From NCBI GenBank assembly GCA_900208305.1, contig OAPG01000008.1:1-64000 (forward strand): a stretch of 64,000 bases of DNA, written 5' to 3'. The number at the start of each line of letters is the position of its first letter. The stretch's first letter is position 1. The notes beneath the pieces are model-generated. The model searched no databases and was not told the DNA's origin. It saw only the letters and a list, made by a program, of their open reading frames with translations. The position numbers and the translations under genes were made by a program. Shown here piece by piece: positions 45,242 through 54,139 of the stretch. The DNA comes from Melanopsichium pennsylvanicum. Lineage: Eukaryota > Basidiomycota > Ustilaginomycetes > Ustilaginales.

Positions 45242-45502
45242 TCAACAACAGATTGGTGACATGTTTGAACCAATTTCCTTTTACCATCATTCTTTTCCGC
45301 GTTGTGCCAAGTGGTGCCCGGAGACAAGACTGCGATAAAGGGCGGCTGGTGAAAAAGGAGAAGGTGGCTTCAGCCTTGTTGGATTGGGTCGAAATTTGAT
45401 GCAACCCAACCCTTGAATAAGGTTCAGCCCGACTCGAGAGCTTGCGTGTTCCAATGCGGAAGCCTGTGCCGAACTTCAAGCACGCACGTGGCCATTCACT
45501 GC

Positions 45503-46195
45503 TGTTAGTGCCTACCAACCGGAGTCCAAAGAGGGGGTGCTCGGCCCCCCTCCCGATTGAGCGATCGTCGTGATCGGTCCCCGACCAACCCTCTCCGGAC
45601 CCCTCGCAGCGGAGCGGTCGGCCTGACACGATCCTCCTACCGCCCAACCGCGGCTGGCCCCTCCGTACGTAGGATACGACCGTCGGCAACCTAACATTGT
45701 AACGCCGCGGTGGGAAGTGACCGATAGTTCCTGTGTTAGTGCCTACCAACCGGAGTCCAAAGAGGGGGTGCTCGGCCCCCCTCCCGATTGAGCGATCGTC
45801 GTGATCAGGCCCCGACCGACCCTCTCCGGACCCCTCGCAGCGGAGCGGTCGGCCTGACACGATCCTCCTACCGCCCAACCGCGGCTGGCCCCTCCGTACG
45901 TAGGATACGACCGTCGGCAACCTAACATTGTAACGCCGCGGTGGGAAGTGACCGATAGTTCCTGTGTTAGTGCCTACCAACCGGAGTCCAAAGAGGGGGT
46001 GCTCGGCCCCCCTCCCGATTGAGCGATCGTCGTGATCGGGCCCCGACCGACCCTCTCCGGACCCCTCGCAGCGGAGCGGTCGGCCTGACACGATCCTCCT
46101 ACCGCCCAACCGCGGCTGGCCCCTCCGTACGTAGGATACGACCGTCGGCAACCTAACATTGTAACGCCGCGGTGGGAAGTGACCGATAGTTCCTG
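45503..46195 (+). repeat. Three tandem 231-bp units in U3 of the 5' LTR
   Basis: Units start at 45503, 45734 and 45965, each TGTTAGTGCC... to ...CGATAGTTCCTG, and differ at only a few positions around GATCGGTCCCCGACCAACC. 231 is divisible by three, so a repetitive minus-strand frame runs through all copies by chance. The 3' LTR and the solo LTR at 14330 have one unit. Confidence 0.97.
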
Positions 46196-46394
46196 TACCT
46201 TACCACCCCGCCCCCGCCTGACATGAGGTTGCCTCCGGACCTCGTCGCATGTATTACTTAGTTAGCTCTATAGCAACGCAGTAGTGTGCTCTGACCCCCG
46301 ACCGCCTGTGTCGCCCCGCCTACGACCTCTCCGTACCCGTAGCCTCCATCCCGGCTGTAGCCGCCCGCGGTATCTAGACCCTACAGCCTTAACA
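45503..46394 (+). repeat. 5' LTR (expanded)
   Basis: 892 bp. The length exceeds the 3' LTR (430 bp) by exactly 462 bp, that is, two extra copies of the 231-bp unit at its start. It ends CCTACAGCCTTAACA. Confidence 0.96.
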
Positions 46395-46395
46395 T

Positions 46396-46405
46396 TACAT
46401 GCGAC
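46396..46405 (+). other. Putative self-priming primer-binding site
   Basis: TACATGCGAC begins two bases after the 5' LTR and is the exact reverse complement of GTCGCATGTA at 46244-46253 inside the LTR. No TGG-type tRNA primer site is present. This matches the arrangement in Tf1, where the transcript's own 5' end folds back as primer. It implies transcription starts near 46244. Confidence 0.6.
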
Positions 46406-46433
46406 CTCCCCACGGGACGACGTCGTAACCAAG

Positions 46434-47669
46434 ATGAGTACACGCTCCAACCGACGAAACCAAACGGACGCCTCCCCCCAAGCGGAGGGAGACGCTCCCA
46501 CCATCTCCCCCAGCGGAGACGAGCCCGCCAGCGTTGTTGCACCCTCGGGCAAACCGCCCGCCGCCCTGACCACCTTGGTCCAAGGGCAAGTGGATATCCT
46601 GGCGCTTCTGCGTGAAACCTCTGAACAACAGCGGCGCATTACCGCTCTGCTAGAGGCCGCCTTCTTCCCCAGGGAGGATCAACCTAGACCGGAGTCTTCT
46701 CAGCACTACCAAGGAGCAACCGCTGCCCAGGTCCCCCCGCCAACCGTAGCCCCCGTCTACGTGGAGGCCGCGCCCCGCGAGCCAGAGATTCGACTCCAGG
46801 CTCCGGAATGGGACGGCAGCCAAGACAAACTGGAGGACTTCTTGGATCAATGCGAACTCAACTTCGAGGCTAATCCCTCCAAGTTTCCGACGGATGCCCG
46901 TCGCATCATGTTTGCCATCGGCAACATGACGGGCAAACCACGAACCCGCATTCGCAATGTGCGACAACAGGAGGGGGAGGATCCGCCCTGGATGAGCTCC
47001 TGGAGGGCCTTTTGCGTCGACCTCCGTTGCGTCCATGGCGATCCCGACCCCAGCTACACCGCACGCCTCCAACTGAATGCCCTCCGCCAGAAGGGATCAG
47101 TATCGGAGCACGCGGCGGAGTTCATGTCGCTGACGGCCAAATTGCACCTGACCGACCAGCAGCAGGCGTTGATGCTGTTCGAACAAAGCCTCCGGCCGCG
47201 CCTACGGGAAAAGCTCACCCACGTGCCGATGACCGACATCCGTGACTTCATCAACGCCGCCATTGTCACGGAGCGCCGGATGCAGGTGATACAGGAGGCC
47301 ACGACAAGACCCGCGGAGTCACAGCTGCGACACCGACCGCCCCTCCCAGCCGTGACGGCCAAACGAGAGCCCCCGGAGGGACCCCGCAAAATGGAACGAC
47401 CTCCACTACCGGCCAAGGACCCTACGCGTGATGCGGCGGAACGCCTCCGCCAGCACCGACGGACCAACGGGCAGTGCTTCGGCTGCGGTGGCAGCGACCA
47501 TTTGGCCCGTGACTGCCCGAAGGCGCCCCAAACACAAACTCTCCGGGCACATGCTATTTCATTCGACAACGATTCCGGGACTATACTCGTCAACCCCATG
47601 GATGACGGGTCAGCCTCCAACCCCAACAGTGACCTATCGGATTCGGAGGATCCCCCGGAGGGAGACTAA
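46434..47669 (+). CDS. gag: Gag polyprotein
   Basis: 411 residues from ATG 46434 (AAG-ATG-AGT context), the first ATG beyond the LTR; an upstream in-frame start would lie inside the LTR. The capsid-type retrotrans_gag region centres on WDGSQDKLEDFLDQCELNF and continues through SEHAAEFMSL. A CCHC knuckle (CFGCGGSDHLARDC, spacing C-x2-C-x4-H-x4-C) lies near the C terminus. The tail is acidic. It overlaps the pol frame by 37 bases. Confidence 0.94.
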   Translation: MSTRSNRRNQTDASPQAEGDAPTISPSGDEPASVVAPSGKPPAALTTLVQGQVDILALLRETSEQQRRITALLEAAFFPREDQPRPESSQHYQGATAAQVPPPTVAPVYVEAAPREPEIRLQAPEWDGSQDKLEDFLDQCELNFEANPSKFPTDARRIMFAIGNMTGKPRTRIRNVRQQEGEDPPWMSSWRAFCVDLRCVHGDPDPSYTARLQLNALRQKGSVSEHAAEFMSLTAKLHLTDQQQALMLFEQSLRPRLREKLTHVPMTDIRDFINAAIVTERRMQVIQEATTRPAESQLRHRPPLPAVTAKREPPEGPRKMERPPLPAKDPTRDAAERLRQHRRTNGQCFGCGGSDHLARDCPKAPQTQTLRAHAISFDNDSGTILVNPMDDGSASNPNSDLSDSEDPPEGD

Positions 47670-50600
47670 GGGTCGATGGGTTCCTTCGGTCCGAACCCAT
47701 CGACAACCTAAGCCAGCTCCGGGTGCTCGCCGCAGCATTCTGGGCAGCCCACCGGACCGACACTCCCGTCGTGGAGCAAGAGGGATCCGTTCTCCGGATC
47801 CATCGACACCCTACCTTACCAACCTACAAATGCTTGGTAAGCGTCGGCGACATGCAAGGCCTTGCCTTGCTCGATACCGGCGCCACCGCCTCTTTCATTA
47901 CTCCCGAAATGGTCGCAACGGCCAACATTCCTACCCACTCCCTCCGTAAATCCGTCCACGCCACATTCCTCCAGGGCATGTCGGCCGCCATCAGTCGCCA
48001 CGCGGCGGTGGATATCATCATCAACAACCACTGCATCACCTCACGCCACCGACTCTTCATCACCCCCATGACCTCCCACGACGTGCTGTTGGGGATGGAT
48101 TGGATCGAGGCCGCCAGGCCGGAGCCAAACTATACCCTCCGTACGTGGGACCTCCGGGTCCCCCACACCGTCACGGTGCCCTCCAACCCCAAAATCGAAA
48201 AGAACAAACTCCACAACTTGGTCGGCCGGCGACAGCTGGTCTCCACTGAGGAGGACCTGCTGGTCCTCCCAGAACCGGAAGAGGAGCTACTGCCCCTCCG
48301 AGCTTCCGCGACCGACCTCGCCGTCCTACTGCCAGAGTACCGCGAGTACGCCGACGTCTTCAACGCCGAGAGGGCCGACCAATTGCCTCCCCACCGCCCA
48401 CACGACCACGAGATCAACCTGGAGGCTGGCAAAACCCCTCCCTACGGCGCACTCTACTCCCTGTCGCACCGCGAACAAGAGGAGCTCCGGAACTACCTCC
48501 GGAAGATGCAGGCCATTGGATTCATCCGACCGTCGAGTAGCCAAGCTGCCGCGCCCCTCCTTTTTGTACCAAAGAAGGACGGTCGCCTCCGGCCGTGTGT
48601 GGACTACCGCGCCCTCAACGCCATCACCGTCAAGGATCGCTACCCGATCCCCCTCATCTCCGAACACCTTGATCGGCTGGCGACGGCCAAGATCTTCACT
48701 AAATTCGACCTGAAGGGTGCCTACAACCTCCTCCGGATCGCCCCTGGCCACAAATGGAAGACCGCATTCCGCACGCGCTACGGCAGCTACGAATACCTTG
48801 TCATGCCGTTCGGCCTCTGCAACGCTCCGGCGACCTTCCAACGGCTCATGAACCACGTGCTGTCGGATCTCTTAGACGTGTCCGTCATCGTATATCTGGA
48901 CGACATCCTAGTCTTCTCCGACAACGAGGCCGACCACCACCACCACGTCTGCCAAGTGTTGGATCGACTACGGAAGCATCAGCTGTATTGCGCTCCGGAC
49001 AAATGCGAATTCCACACCGACTCCGTCGAGTTCCTCGGCTACCTCGTCAGTCCCGACGGCCTCTCCATGGACCCGACCAAGGTCAACACAGTCTTGGAGT
49101 GGCCGCCACCACAGTCGATCCGACAGATCCAAGTCTTCCTCGGATTTGCCAACTTCTACCGTCGCTTCATCCGCCACTATTCTCGTGTAGCGGCCCCCCT
49201 CACCGACCTCCTGAAAGGAGGAGCCTCCGGAAAGGTAGATCTGCCCCCGGAAGCAACGGCAGCCTTCAACCGGCTGAAAGAAGCGTTCACCTCTGCCCCT
49301 ATCCTCCGGCACTTCTCTCCAACGCTCTACACCGTCGTCAAAACAGACGCGAGCGATGCTGTGGTAGCCGCCGTGCTGTCGCAGTGGCACCCACAGCCGG
49401 GCGCCGACGCGAGCGCCGAGCCCAACAGCCGCTCGCATACCCTCCATCCTGTGGCATACTGGTCGCGAAAGATGATCCCGGCGGAGCGTAACTACGAAAT
49501 CCACAACAAGGAACTCCTGGCTATCGTAGACGCCTGCGGCGCTTGGAGACACTACCTCCATGGCCTCACCCGACCGTTCCTCATTTACACCGACCACCAG
49601 GCGCTCCAGTATTTTCAGACAAAGCGACAACTCAACCGTCGCCAAGCCCGCTGGCAAGCCGACCTGGCTGAGTTCGACTTCGTCCTCCACTACCGTCCGG
49701 GTAAGGAGGCCGTCCGCCCCGACGCTCTGAGTCGCCGGCACGACTTGTTCCCCGACGGACCGTCGCGCCCAGACCCCGCCAACCAAGCCACTCTCCTCCC
49801 TGCAAACTTGTTTGCAAGGGCAGCCGGCGTACACTCCTCGGACCCCCTGCCTACGGAGTGGATCGAAACCCTCCGGAAAGCGGCCAACCTCCCCCCAAAC
49901 GTTGCCGTCCGCGATGGTGTCCCGTACACCACAGAGGGTCACGTCTACCTGCCACCCCAATTACGGGACAAGGCACTCCACCTACTGCACGACCACCCTA
50001 CGGCGGGACATCCTGGCCGCAAGACGACCCTCCATCTCATGCGTCAACGTTTTTACTGGCCAACCATGGCGCAGGACACCGACAGCTATGTCGCCTCTTG
50101 CGCGGCCTGCCGAAGGGCAAAACACCCCCGTCACAAACCCCACGGCTACCTTCTCCCGTCGGTCCCTCCCAATCGGCCGTGGTCCACTATTACCATGGAC
50201 CACATCACTGACCTCCCGCCCTCCCTTGCCAACGGCACCACCTACAACTCCATTCTTGTAGTCGTCGACCGCCTCACCAAGTTTGTGGTCTTCATTCCTG
50301 CAAACAAAACCGATACGGCGGAGACTTTGGCGTACCAGCTCCACCGCTACGTCTTTTCATACTTTGGCCTCCCGGACACCATTGTATCTGACCGAGGAAC
50401 CACGTTTGTAGCTTCCGTTTGGACGGAACTCCTCCGGGCCCTCCGGATTAAAGGGTCTTACTCGTCGGCCTACCACCCTCAAACAAATGGCCAGACCGAG
50501 CGAGCCAACCAGACGCTGGAGTTGTTCCTCCGCTTTTATACGGCCTACGACCACAGCGACTGGGCAACCCTCCTGCCGACAGCCCAGCTCGCGCTGAACC

Positions 50601-51229
50601 AAAGACCGTCGGCAACCACAACCATCGCCCCGGCTATAGCTTGCTTCACATTTGCACCTCGAACACACCCCTCCATCCCCCCGGCCACCTCCAACGTTCC
50701 GTCGGCGGATAAAGTGCAGGTGTGCCAGGACGCCATCGCCAAAGCCAACCTTGCCGTCGCAAAGTGGTTTAACCGTTGCAGGAGCGACGTCTCGTTCCGC
50801 CGGGGGGACCTGGTGCTCCTCCGTACCAAGCACCTCCGCAGCGACCGACCCTCCCACAAGCTCTCCAACCCCCTCGCCGGCCCGTTCAAAGTCGACGAGG
50901 TGATTAGCGACCGAGCCTACCGACTCCTCCTGCCTCCGTCGTGGAAGGTCCACCCCGTCTTTCACGTACAGATGCTGGAGCCATACCCCGACGGAGTCAG
51001 GGAGTCCAGCGACGCCCCCCAACCGACTACTCGGGAGGACGACTACGCCAATTTCAAAGTCGAGGGCGTATTGGACTCCCGCCGCCGCGCCGGACGCCTA
51101 CAGTACAAGGTCTCCTGGGTAGGGTACCCCCCAAGCTGGGTCCCGGCGGAAGACGTGGACCGCGCCCCGGATCTGGTCGCTGCGTACCACGCCGCGAACC
51201 CGACCAAGCCGGCCCCTACCTGGCGTTAG
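47633..51229 (+). CDS. pol: Pol polyprotein (protease, RT, RNase H, integrase, chromodomain)
   Basis: The frame opens after a stop at 47630-47632 and runs 1198 codons, in the -1 frame relative to gag. No suitable ATG precedes the protease, so it is probably made as Gag-Pol by frameshifting within 47633-47669. Domains in order: retropepsin LLDTGATASF; RT with FDLKGAYNLLR and YLDDILVFS; RNase H with KTDASDAVVAAV, KELLAIVDA and YTDHQAL; integrase zinc finger (HPTAGHPGRKTT, CAACRRAK); integrase core D-D-E (TMDHITDLPP, VSDRGTTF, HPQTNGQTERANQ); and a C-terminal chromodomain (YKVSWVGYPPSWVPAEDVDR) that may target heterochromatin. No internal stop or shift was seen. Confidence 0.95.
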   Translation, partial: PIGFGGSPGGRLRVDGFLRSEPIDNLSQLRVLAAAFWAAHRTDTPVVEQEGSVLRIHRHPTLPTYKCLVSVGDMQGLALLDTGATASFITPEMVATANIPTHSLRKSVHATFLQGMSAAISRHAAVDIIINNHCITSRHRLFITPMTSHDVLLGMDWIEAARPEPNYTLRTWDLRVPHTVTVPSNPKIEKNKLHNLVGRRQLVSTEEDLLVLPEPEEELLPLRASATDLAVLLPEYREYADVFNAERADQLPPHRPHDHEINLEAGKTPPYGALYSLSHREQEELRNYLRKMQAIGFIRPSSSQAAAPLLFVPKKDGRLRPCVDYRALNAITVKDRYPIPLISEHLDRLATAKIFTKFDLKGAYNLLRIAPGHKWKTAFRTRYGSYEYLVMPFGLCNAPATFQRLMNHVLSDLLDVSVIVYLDDILVFSDNEADHHHHVCQVLDRLRKHQLYCAPDKCEFHTDSVEFLGYLVSPDGLSMDPTKVNTVLEWPPPQSIRQIQVFLGFANFYRRFIRHYSRVAAPLTDLLKGGASGKVDLPPEATAAFNRLKEAFTSAPILRHFSPTLYTVVKTDASDAVVAAVLSQWHPQPGADASAEPNSRSHTLHPVAYWSRKMIPAERNYEIHNKELLAIVDACGAWRHYLHGLTRPFLIYTDHQALQYFQTKRQLNRRQARWQADLAEFDFVLHYRPGKEAVRPDALSRRHDLFPDGPSRPDPANQATLLPANLFARAAGVHSSDPLPTEWIETLRKAANLPPNVAVRDGVPYTTEGHVYLPPQLRDKALHLLHDHPTAGHPGRKTTLHLMRQRFYWPTMAQDTDSYVASCAACRRAKHPRHKPHGYLLPSVPPNRPWSTITMDHITDLPPSLANGTTYNSILVVVDRLTKFVVFIPANKTDTAETLAYQLHRYVFSYFGLPDTIVSDRGTTFVASVWTELLRALRIKGSYSSAYHPQTNGQTERANQTLELFLRFYTAYDHSDWATLLPTAQLALNQRPSATTTIAPAIACFTFAPRTHPSIPPATSNVPSADKVQVCQDAIAKANLAVAKWFNRCRSDVSFRRGDLVLLRTKHLRSDRPSHKLSNPLAGPFKVDEVISDRAYRLLLPPSWKVHPVFHVQMLEPYPDGVRESSDAPQPTTREDDYANFKVEGVLDSRRRAGRLQYKVSWVGYPPSWVPAEDVDRAPDLVAAYHAANPTKPAPTWR

Positions 51230-51412
51230 GCACGGATACGAGCGACGGTCGCCGTCGGGAGACCCCCCCGCCAGAACCAAAACCCCTCCGGTCCCCGACC
51301 TCTGGGGTAGGAGACCCGGTCGGGCTCCCCTCACCCCCACTCCCACACACGGACACACACACACGCAAGCGACAGAAAAGAAAACAAGTGCATTCGAGGA
51401 GGGGCCCCGGGG

Positions 51413-52868
51413 CTAGTCCCTCAGGAAGCCATCCAACCACGCCCAGACCACGTCCACCTGCTGTCGCGTGTTCTGCGACAGTTGCTGGATCTCGCTGATC
51501 CGGCGGAGCTCTCGCTCGCCGCCGGTCCTCAGCGACTCTGTCAGCAACAGCGCAGCCACGTCGGCCAGCCCCTGTTGAAATAACTCAGTCCCCTCCTGCA
51601 CCCCGTGGAAGAGGGACTCGGCACGCCTTACGGCCGCACCCAGGTCCCCCAGGCCCGTAGCGGACTCCCCCGGCTGGCCTTGGGCCCGCGCCCGAGTGCG
51701 ACGCCGCTCTTGGGCAGCCTCGGCTGGACGGTCGGGGCGAGACCTAGCTCGCTTGCGAGCCGCCTCCCGCTCCCGACCCACCGCGCCCACCCGAGCCACC
51801 TCCTCCCTCAGTTCCTCCTCCTCCTCCGGGATCTCGCCAAGTGTCCTCAGCGACAACCTGACGTTGGGGTGGGGGCGGCGACGCCGACCGACCCCTCCGG
51901 ACCTCCACCTCTCAAGCAAGCACGCGTAAACCCTCATTCGGAGGGGACCTTGGGCGCCGCCAAGTGGTGGGACTGTCGAGGAAAACAAAAGGAGGAACAA
52001 GAGTCAGCCGACCACCCAGGACATCGCGACAGACGCCCGACGGAAATACTTACCGCGCATATCCGCGTCGCAGGGTTGCCCGTGCTGCCCCTGACACCGA
52101 CGGCAGCGGAGATCGCCTCCCGCCCGCTCACAGGCAACGCCGGCGCATACGCAGCCATAGCAATTGCCCCACGTCTCGGCCCATAGCGGGGCAAGGTCTG
52201 TTGTATCGGCCACGGAAACACAAACGTCAGTAGCGATCCCAATCAACACAGCAATGGAACAAATACTTACCATCACCAACGAGTTCCGGAGTGATCTCGA
52301 TGGGAACCGAAGGACGCGACCACGGCATCGAATTCCGGGGCGCCAGGACGAGGGAAGTGTTGGTCGATGCAGAGGAAGGAATGGCCGACGGATCGGCAGA
52401 CTGTTGACGCACGGCGCGCTCGCGACGGCCCGAGTTGGCCCCCCGGGAAAGGTGAGCACGCGGAGAACGGCGCACCCCCCGGATGGGACCAGCGGAGGTC
52501 TCCGACGGCCGATCTGTCGTAATCGAAACAAGGGGGAGGGAACAAACGTCAGTAACCCATTCCACGGCACCGACCGGTGGTTGTCAGGCCCTCTGGGCCC
52601 CCCATCCGCAACCGAATCACGACGGAACCACGATCGACTCACCTCCGGAAGCGGGTAACGTTGTTGTTGTTGTTGGTGCTGTTGTTGTTGTTGCTGCTGC
52701 TGCTGTTGCCGACGCTGCCGCCGTCGCGGACGTAGGCGATGGAGGGGGAACGGTACTGACACCGGCCGACGGGTTGTTGGCCGGGGAATCCATGGAAGCG
52801 TCTACTGGTGATGACGACATTGCAAAAAAAAGACAATCCAAGGAAGCGTCTGCTGGTGGCGACGACAT
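51413..52868 (-). CDS. Antisense four-exon gene in the retrotransposon: Zn2Cys6-like, coiled-coil protein
   Basis: Minus-strand exons 52868-52643, 52513-52271, 52197-52054 and 51972-51413 join to 390 residues. Introns of 129, 73 and 81 nt have GTGAGT, GTAAGT and GTAAGT donors, CAG acceptors and CTGAC branch-like sites, and all are phase 1. The N terminus is Ala/Thr/Pro-rich with a 48-nt internal repeat. Residues 157-204 hold C169-x2-C172-x6-C179-x8-C188-x2-C191-x7-C199, which fits the spacing of the fungal Zn2Cys6 binuclear cluster. Residues from about 245 are charged and helical, and the protein ends in an amphipathic segment (QQVDVVWAWLDGF). A TATA-like GGATATAA lies 70 nt upstream; an alternative ATG at 52937 would add 23 residues. 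Function unknown: DNA binding or regulation of the element is inference. Confidence 0.72.
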
Positions 52869-52937
52869 TGCGAAAAAAAAAAAAAAAGAATGGGGAAGAA
52901 TGGGGGAAATCGAGAAGGAAAACCCGTCGAACCCCAT

Positions 52938-52948
52938 CCTTATATCCC
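52938..52948 (-). promoter_or_regulatory. TATA-like box for the antisense gene
   Basis: GGATATAAGG on the minus strand, about 70 nt upstream of ATG 52868 and only a few bases before ATG 52937. This favours the inner start. Confidence 0.4.
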
Positions 52949-53164
52949 TCCTCGATAGCTACGCACGAGCAATGGCGCACAGTCAATTCCGCCGGTCCAA
53001 GGCATTGTGGGTGGTATTGCCCCATTGCTGCGCATCCGCGATTAAATTGCCGAGACGAGCGTCGCAACTTGTACAGAGAGGCGCCCCTGGCGCGGATTAA
53101 GGTTGAGGGAGTACAACCCCCCTCGCCCTCCTGTCCTATCAGCCGCCTGGGGACCAGTCAGCCT

Positions 53165-53178
53165 GAACCGGGGGGTAA
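53165..53178 (+). other. Polypurine tract
   Basis: GAACCGGGGGGTAA directly abuts the 3' LTR, the expected plus-strand primer of an LTR element. Confidence 0.6.
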
Positions 53179-53608
53179 TGTTAGTGCCTACCAACCGGAG
53201 TCCAAAGAGGGGGTGCTCGGCCCCCCTCCCGATTGAGCGATCGTCGTGATCAGGCCCCGACCGACCCTCTCCGGACCCCTCGCAGCGGAGCGGTCGGCCT
53301 GACACAATCCTCCTACCGCCCAACCGCGGCTGGCCCCTCCGTACGTAGGATACGACCGTTGGCAACCTAACATTGTAACGCCGCGGTGGGAAGTGACCGA
53401 TAGTTCCTGTACCTTACCACCCCGCCCCCGCCTGACATGAGGTTGCCTCCGGACCTCGTCGCATGTATTACTTAGTTAGCTCTATAGCAACGCAGTAGTG
53501 TGCTCTGACCCCCGACCGCCTGTGTCGCCCCGCCTACGACCTCTCCGTACCCGTAGCCTCCATCCCGGCTGTAGCCGCCCGCGGTATCTAGACCCTACAG
53601 CCTTAACA
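53179..53608 (+). repeat. 3' LTR
   Basis: 430 bp, TGTTAGTGCC to GCCTTAACA, with a single 231-bp unit. It differs from the 5' LTR units by a few transitions (for example ACAATCC against ACGATCC, GTTGGCA against GTCGGCA). Confidence 0.97.
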
Positions 53609-54139
53609 ACTGCGCCATGATAAGCAGTCTTGGATTGGTCATCATCAAGCATTGTCCTTGATGATGATGATGATGAGATTGTCATTGACGTGGAGGTAAT
53701 GATCCGGCCCAGTCATGTGTGATACCAAGGCTTTTTGCTTCTCAACCCACATCCCAACAAAAAATCAATATACATATATAATTAGAGGTTTTGGATACAA
53801 AATGGGAATGAGGATGAGCTGAGCTTTGATAAAGGTGATTGCAAAACTGGGCTCACTGTGTATGGTGTGTCAAAAGCATGATGAGAATGAGATTGCTCAG
53901 GACATGAGTTTGAACTTCCAAGAAAATTGTGGACGCATCTTGTGATCATTTTTCCTCAAGTAATGCCCATTCATCATACAGATTGTTTGGTCTACTTTTA
54001 AGTGTGTATTGTTGTGATGCCACTTGATGTTGGCATATCCTGGTGCTCCAAGTCTTTGCAGCCATGAATGCTTAGGACAAGCTTTGTTGAAGCATGCAAT
54101 GAAGTGAGTTGGTAAAGACAGAGCACCATCTTCCATTTT
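53609..54139. other. AT-rich, CpG-poor repeat debris
   Basis: Pre-insertion DNA around the retrotransposon. Almost no CpG, and short frames without recognisable products. Confidence 0.5.

Follow-up and report, generated by a model that had tools for sequence, protein, structure and literature searches.

Here we describe an intron-containing, protein-coding gene that is carried in antisense orientation by a Ty3/gypsy long terminal repeat (LTR) retrotransposon of the smut fungus Melanopsichium pennsylvanicum. The element, called family A below, lies intact at 45503-53608 of the window, by which we mean the whole stretch of 64,000 nucleotides that was analysed (contig OAPG01000008.1, positions 1 to 64,000). 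The gene sits on the minus strand between pol and the 3' LTR, where its four exons run from 52868 or 52820 to 51413. Its splice sites and reading frame are conserved among the copies of the family, its protein has been under purifying selection, and a like gene is found in sister families. From these sequences we read it as an accessory gene that is functional in the retrotransposon, most likely one that regulates the element in trans, and we regard this reading as about evenly balanced.

The original prediction had placed a spliced antisense gene of four exons and three phase-1 GT-AG introns inside an intact LTR retrotransposon, and the exons, the splice signals and the LTRs were indeed all confirmed (Table 1). 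Each intron ends in a CAG acceptor with a CTGAC branch-like site upstream of it, and the joined exons give 390 codons plus a stop. A dynamic programming search for joined frames, allowing at most three introns and strict splice signals, returned these 390 codons as the longest frame at the locus. None of 400 dinucleotide shuffles reached 370 codons (maximum 344, mean 129), in agreement with the claim that such a frame is unlikely by chance, and the same search in seven antisense windows of gag-pol gave at most 197 codons. Gene models in the database use, as judged by eye, part of the same junctions (annotation), and two of them, P0006 and P0007, contain exon 3.

A genome search with the antisense stretch scored 40 of 90 candidates, which makes all counts lower bounds; it gave at least 44 matches, at least 36 of them near full length. 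For the alignment of family A we used 30 of these 36, namely the copy in the window and 29 others. All three introns are present in every aligned copy, again with CAG acceptors throughout, and the usual donor sequence is found at each intron in 29 of the 30. The exceptions are an AT for GT at intron 1 and an altered sixth base at intron 2, both in L026, and an altered fourth base at intron 3 in L012. LTR elements copy themselves via the sense RNA, from which the introns of an antisense gene cannot be removed by splicing. Because new copies come from this RNA, the introns persist in each round, and their presence in 30 of 30 copies agrees with the protection by antisense placement that had been proposed. 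The predicted TATA-like box reads GATATAAGGAT in 29 of the 30 copies and is gapped in the remaining one.

The reading frame is kept from the ATG at 52820 in 29 of the 30 copies, the exception being L024 with a deletion of 5 nt in exon 1; the check for stops and frameshifts in other family members thus did not refute the gene. Since this ATG is present in all 30 copies, while the ATG at 52868 is aligned in only 20, the basic product has about 374 amino acids, and the roughly 390 codons of the original prediction hold for the upstream start. The upstream ATG is contained in an apparent in-frame tandem duplication of 48 nt at the start codon (52820-52868), which adds 16 residues. Relative to the copy in the window, exon lengths in the 29 frame-intact copies differ by 0, 3, 6, 9, 18 or 24 nt, whereas intron lengths vary by one base at most, and changes of 1 and 4 are seen in the flanks as well. 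Exon 1, counted from 52820, changes only by multiples of three in these copies, which is in part weak evidence because some of the changes sit in triplet repeats. Exon 2 changes by 0, -9 or -18 nt, and exon 4 does not change in length in any of the 29 other copies.

At the genome places that cover it, exon 4 is open in 36 of 38. It lies within 3.6 kb of the reverse transcriptase (RT) in 28 of the 38 family A RT places; of the other 10, six have it within 13 kb and four have none. The antisense gene belongs to most family A copies rather than to a single transduced copy. Of the 21 long copies, 20 have an intact antisense frame, while gag (at least 467 codons) and pol (at least 1198 codons) are intact in 13 each (Fisher P 0.02); in these counts the single 1204-codon frame of L028 stands for both gag and pol, and some of the gag and pol losses are nested insertions or the ends of the retrieved stretches. 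In two instances family A copies were seen in pairs. The two on contig C8 (about 511935-517866) point in opposite directions and have small pieces between them; the two on contig C2 (109507-117494) point the same way and are separated by about 6.5 kb.

The ratio of nonsynonymous to synonymous substitution rates (dN/dS) across copies, to which the original prediction had also looked, is 0.50 between the two clades of family A (bootstrap 0.33-0.74; 29 of the 30 copies, L024 left out). By exon, the between-clade values are 0.99, 0.49, 0.63 and 0.32 for exons 1 to 4, and in exon 4 the true frame is the lowest of all six (0.32 vs 0.50-2.13 in the other five). A variable-site test on exons 2-4 of 27 of the 30 copies (L024, L016 and L020 dropped) gave P = 0.0075 for singletons. 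In the exons of 51413-52820, 183 of the 343 changes inferred over the 30 copies are C-to-T or G-to-A at CpG, with CpG making up 254 of the 1125 positions. This bias resembles methylated-cytosine decay, and because about half of the events are of this kind, much of the variation in family A looks like decay after insertion.

More importantly, the RT search returned a group of copies that are about 60-63% identical to family A in RT, with sister family B at about 62%. In two families of this group, B (L039) and C (L038), a spliced antisense gene lies at the same location as in family A; three introns are present in A, and one was seen in each of B, C and D. Six copies of family B, L039 among them, were compared out of 30 near-full places. 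Their dN/dS is 0.30 (0.23-0.39), and in each of the two exons none of the five other frames is as low as the true one, the next best values being 0.49 and 0.38. Divergence in family B is 0.134 at third codon positions vs 0.080 and 0.048 at the others; gaps in the exons are only of 21 nt, and those in the intron are of 1, 2, 4, 6 and 17. The protein of B is homologous to that of C (37% over 209 amino acids, two-sequence E 6e-34, with C read past its stop with X), and the decayed family D (L046) is 31-34% identical to B with, by eye, the same exon junction and motif. All four families share the cysteine pattern C-x2-C-x6-C-x8..20-C-x2-C-x7-C (D by eye), the middle loop being 18-20 in B, C and D. 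In these three the intron splits the motif between the second and the third cysteine; family A has the entire motif in exon 3. As far as sequence can tell, the sister families settle that the antisense gene is protein-coding. Families A and B-D have position, orientation, splicing and cysteine spacing in common, and common descent of the gene of family A with the others is possible.

In a distant family with an RT 39% identical, no antisense gene was recognised in L040 and L047, in a partial look at stretches crowded with other element fragments. At L040:1402-3801, an RNase H-like stretch seemingly follows the chromodomain at the end of pol of this family, as judged by eye. At L040:5438-7972 and in L047, the model P0006 (MEPE_01710) fuses antisense exons 2 and 3 to a fragment of an SNase/Tudor gene. 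This fragment adjoins a deleted family A copy, and the same fragment occurs at two places on contig C3; the join may be a fusion or a prediction artefact.

The cysteine cluster of family A has the predicted spacing, C-x2-C-x6-C-x8-C-x2-C-x7-C, with an extra seventh cysteine in the x6 gap. None of 50,000 shuffles of the 374-residue protein reproduced the pattern, and the motif cysteines are invariant across 20 distinct family A sequences. The fungal Zn2Cys6 domain (PF00172) has the spacing C-x2-C-x6-C-x5..-C-x2-C-x6..8-C, which the proteins of A, B and C follow and, by eye, that of D. The earlier description of the cluster as Zn2Cys6-like therefore stands for the spacing but not for the Pfam model: with a cut-off at E 10, the PF00172 profile matched neither A nor B, nor C up to its stop, and none of its 72 matches in the genome falls at a family A exon 3 place. 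A sequence search of the PDB gave a best E of 0.086 for family A, to low-complexity stretches, and no match for exon 3 alone, while the family B protein gave only a sub-threshold Rubicon-domain match (E 0.36). Searches with the family A protein (the 7994 best word-sharing candidates scored; also 14 and 852 candidates) returned only M. pennsylvanicum entries. In line with the charged helical half that had been described, exon 4 is predicted to be mostly helical at a mean predicted local distance difference test score (pLDDT) of 61, the last 75 residues being modelled best (block means 71-78).

Several observations weigh against a conserved, functional protein. On the plus strand, a frame of 200 codons with nothing else in its favour is still open in 28 of the 29 other copies, so that frame survival alone is weak proof, and we rejected it as proof of coding. 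Exon 1 is near neutral, the cysteine exon 3 reaches only 0.63 between clades, and dN/dS inside the major clade is 0.70. The events counted on the tree of the 30 copies (217 nonsynonymous, 124 synonymous and 2 nonsense, with 224.7, 111.2 and 7.0 expected) are also near neutral, and for shared sites the variable-site test gave P = 0.19. One in-frame stop is present in four of the six family B copies. In the database models P0001-P0004, exon 2 is joined straight to exon 4 and exon 3 is absent. Pfam recognised no domain in the family A protein, and profile comparison detected no similarity between the proteins of A and B/C (probability 0.2% in both runs), so that homology of the family A gene to those of B and C was not found. 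Finally, Gal4-type Zn2Cys6 clusters have a helical, two-metal cluster fold. Structure prediction yielded the helices of exon 4, but for exon 3 it gave beta strands at low confidence with no Gal4-type helices, and neither of two comparable PDB chains was matched; this model does not support a Zn2Cys6 fold for exon 3.

A natural loss of the gene was found in family C, where 40 of 79 candidates of the query search were scored. In at least 20 places, segment 1-323 (or 1-311) of the query is joined directly to 1683-1934, which is one shared deletion that removes the gene; among the matches listed, only 4 places hold the whole query, plus fragments. Of the gene-less copies, 18 of 20 have an RT match no more than 4 kb away, and an open pol of at least 1291 amino acids is present in 10 of these 18; one of the 10 has a stop inside RT and nine keep a clean full-length pol. 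A 1291-amino-acid pol frame is found in one of the four whole-query copies (L038), whose antisense exon 2 has a stop. Because gene-less copies spread to 20 places, several of them with full pol, the antisense gene is dispensable in cis, and in family C it is accessory and not essential in cis. Supply of its product in trans from other copies is possible.

We suggest that antisense transcription would start from a promoter located between pol and the 3' LTR, and that the host spliceosome would remove the three introns from the transcript. The small protein made from it would begin with a low-complexity region; its cysteine cluster would probably bind metal, and its C-terminus would be helical and might oligomerise. 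The protein would regulate the element in trans, by feedback either on sense transcription or on the chromatin of the LTR. Antisense transcription, splicing in vivo, binding of metal, action in the nucleus and the sign of the regulation are steps that we infer. Since selection preserved its protein, the gene probably helps the element to regulate itself, and a regulatory role appears most likely by analogy with the antisense, spliced HBZ/APH proteins and the plant antisense open reading frames (ORFs) discussed below.

Purifying selection leaves open, however, which function is kept, and the protein could instead act in the replication cycle, in nuclear import, particle assembly or integration targeting. 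The long helical C-terminus (a low-confidence model) would suit such a role, and for the plant protein GENE23, which is nuclear, a role in import is discussed (PMC7264820). Against this, gene-less copies of family C have spread to 20 places, several of which have a full pol, and a replication factor would have had to come from other copies; we consider this alternative possible but clearly the less probable one. It could also be that the antisense transcript itself matters, through double-stranded RNA, small RNAs or interference with sense transcription, and that the protein is incidental. Because pol and the antisense gene converge, with their stop codons about 184 nt apart, overlapping transcripts are likely, and functions of antisense RNA are discussed for plant elements (PMC7264820). 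An RNA-only role, however, does not account for the frame-specific dN/dS of family B in both exons and for exon indels in threes, and we think it unlikely.

The original prediction had also raised the capture of a host regulator, and the introns and the Zn2Cys6-like spacing do resemble fungal regulators. Yet the genome matches of A exons 3-4 and of the B protein look like element copies or fragments (A exons 1-2 were not searched as protein), the family A exon 3 places have no PF00172 match, and among the candidates scored the family A protein found its like only within M. pennsylvanicum. Moreover, the homologous gene common to B, C and D means that, at least there, it is no recent capture. 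A host gene carried as a passenger is thus disfavoured, and we hold it to be quite improbable. GC-rich DNA, finally, does hold long spurious frames (here, for example, 265 codons on the minus and 200 codons on the plus strand), and the joined frame could be one of these with chance splice-like signals. The shuffles, the conservation of the splice sites, the sister families and the selection test in family B contradict a chance frame, which we rejected on the shuffles and on family B selection and to which we give hardly any credence.

Returning to a trans-acting regulator, one may speculate further that the antisense strand is an intron-safe niche for a spliced regulatory gene in basidiomycete Ty3 elements, that the cysteine exon is a splice-controlled isoform cassette or copy-number switch, and that the gene loss in family C is an escape from self-restraint. 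Because the 144-nt exon preserves the frame and is skipped in four database models, isoforms that carry the metal cluster and others that lack it, such as an activator and a repressor, are conceivable. We offer this extended picture as a rather doubtful one. If the gene is expressed as we read it, retrotransposons can carry a spliced gene stably, with copying from the opposite strand protecting the introns. Additionally, several families in one small genome together with a natural gene-loss lineage make the role of antisense genes in LTR elements directly testable, since sibling copies that have the gene can be set against others that lack it.

The host element is a Ty3/gypsy chromovirus, as given by the order of the pol domains ending in a chromodomain, the paired LTRs and the 5-bp target duplication ACTGC, read from the flanks at 45498-45502 and 53609-53613. 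The pol frame is -1 relative to gag, from the coordinates, and the CCHC knuckle of gag scores slightly under its cut-off. At 45503-45964, within the target duplication, the first 231 bp of the LTR stand twice more in tandem ahead of the full 5' LTR, perhaps by slippage during or after integration. In a scan of viral contigs with pol, two stretches matched by pattern and none was confirmed.

Table 1. Features of the family A element and its antisense gene in the window.
Feature	Position	Strand	Remarks
5' LTR	45965..46394	+	430 bp; 99.3% identical to 3' LTR
gag frame, stop to stop	46266..47669	+	Ty3 capsid and Retrotrans_gag domains
pol frame, stop to stop	47633..51229	+	1198 codons; protease, RT, RNase H, integrase, chromodomain
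exon 4	51413..51972	-	560 nt; encodes the charged C-terminal half (mostly helical by prediction); TAG stop at 51415-51413
intron 3	51973..52053	-	81 nt; GTAAGT...CAG, phase 1
exon 3	52054..52197	-	144 nt; contains the six cysteines of the motif; frame preserved if skipped
intron 2	52198..52270	-	73 nt; GTAAGT...CAG, phase 1
exon 2	52271..52513	-	243 nt
intron 1	52514..52642	-	129 nt; GTGAGT...CAG, phase 1
exon 1	52643..52868	-	226 nt; low-complexity Ala/Thr/Pro/Ser N-terminus
TATA-like box	52936..52946	-	between pol and 3' LTR, outside the LTR
3' LTR	53179..53608	+	430 bp

An antisense gene, brtn, of the Boty-like elements was reportedly described by Zhao et al. (Virology, 2011). The Boty-like elements of Botrytis cinerea have gag-pol with a CHROMO domain plus the antisense brtn (PMC4227169; the Boty element is also covered in PMC8365987). 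The original prediction's statement that no intron-containing fungal case is described must thus be narrowed: an antisense gene is described in a fungal element, and the statement may hold for its intron-containing part. By this description, brtn is like the smut gene one extra antisense gene in a fungal Ty3/gypsy element; the Boty host is an ascomycete, whereas the smut elements are those of a basidiomycete. In plants, the aORF-3R genes (Grande GENE23, RIRE2, Retand TRP28) lie antisense between pol and the 3' LTR, are retained in the majority of copies and in related families alike, and have a suggested regulatory role (PMC7264820, PMC11963269). The smut gene has just this position, between pol and the 3' LTR and antisense to gag-pol. 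The plant genes differ in their protein domains and hosts, while the smut genes have introns and the cysteine cluster. The word 'intron' was not found in the main texts of PMC7264820 and PMC11963269 on these plant ORFs, and the conclusion of PMC7264820 calls for the study of antisense and spliced transcripts.

The closest mechanism may be that of the retroviral antisense proteins (PMC10186651). HBZ of human T-cell leukemia virus (HTLV) type 1 and the APH proteins of HTLV-2/3/4 are antisense, spliced and encoded near the 3' end of the retroelement, and several of them modulate sense transcription from the LTR (PMC10186651). Their promoter, however, lies in the 3' LTR, whereas the smut TATA-like box is apparently outside it, and HBZ is a basic leucine zipper (bZIP) protein, whereas the family A protein is without a Pfam match. 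Nuclear group I introns offer another parallel, since they carry antisense homing endonuclease genes with spliceosomal introns (PMC9548176); there too, a selfish element carries genes, in sense or antisense orientation, that spliceosomal introns interrupt, but the element is an intron of ribosomal DNA encoding an endonuclease and not a retrotransposon. In the accessible portions of the open-licence literature, including PMC8365987, PMC11963269, PMC7264820, PMC4227169, PMC9603552 and PMC10186651, we found no fungal LTR element with a spliced antisense protein gene. Another paper on fungi, PMC10648671, concerns noncoding antisense RNA that comes from transposons. Known already are the antisense extra genes in plant LTR elements and in the fungal Boty with its brtn; new, within the literature searched, are the spliceosomal introns, the cysteine cluster, the occurrence in several basidiomycete families and the lineage that has lost the gene.
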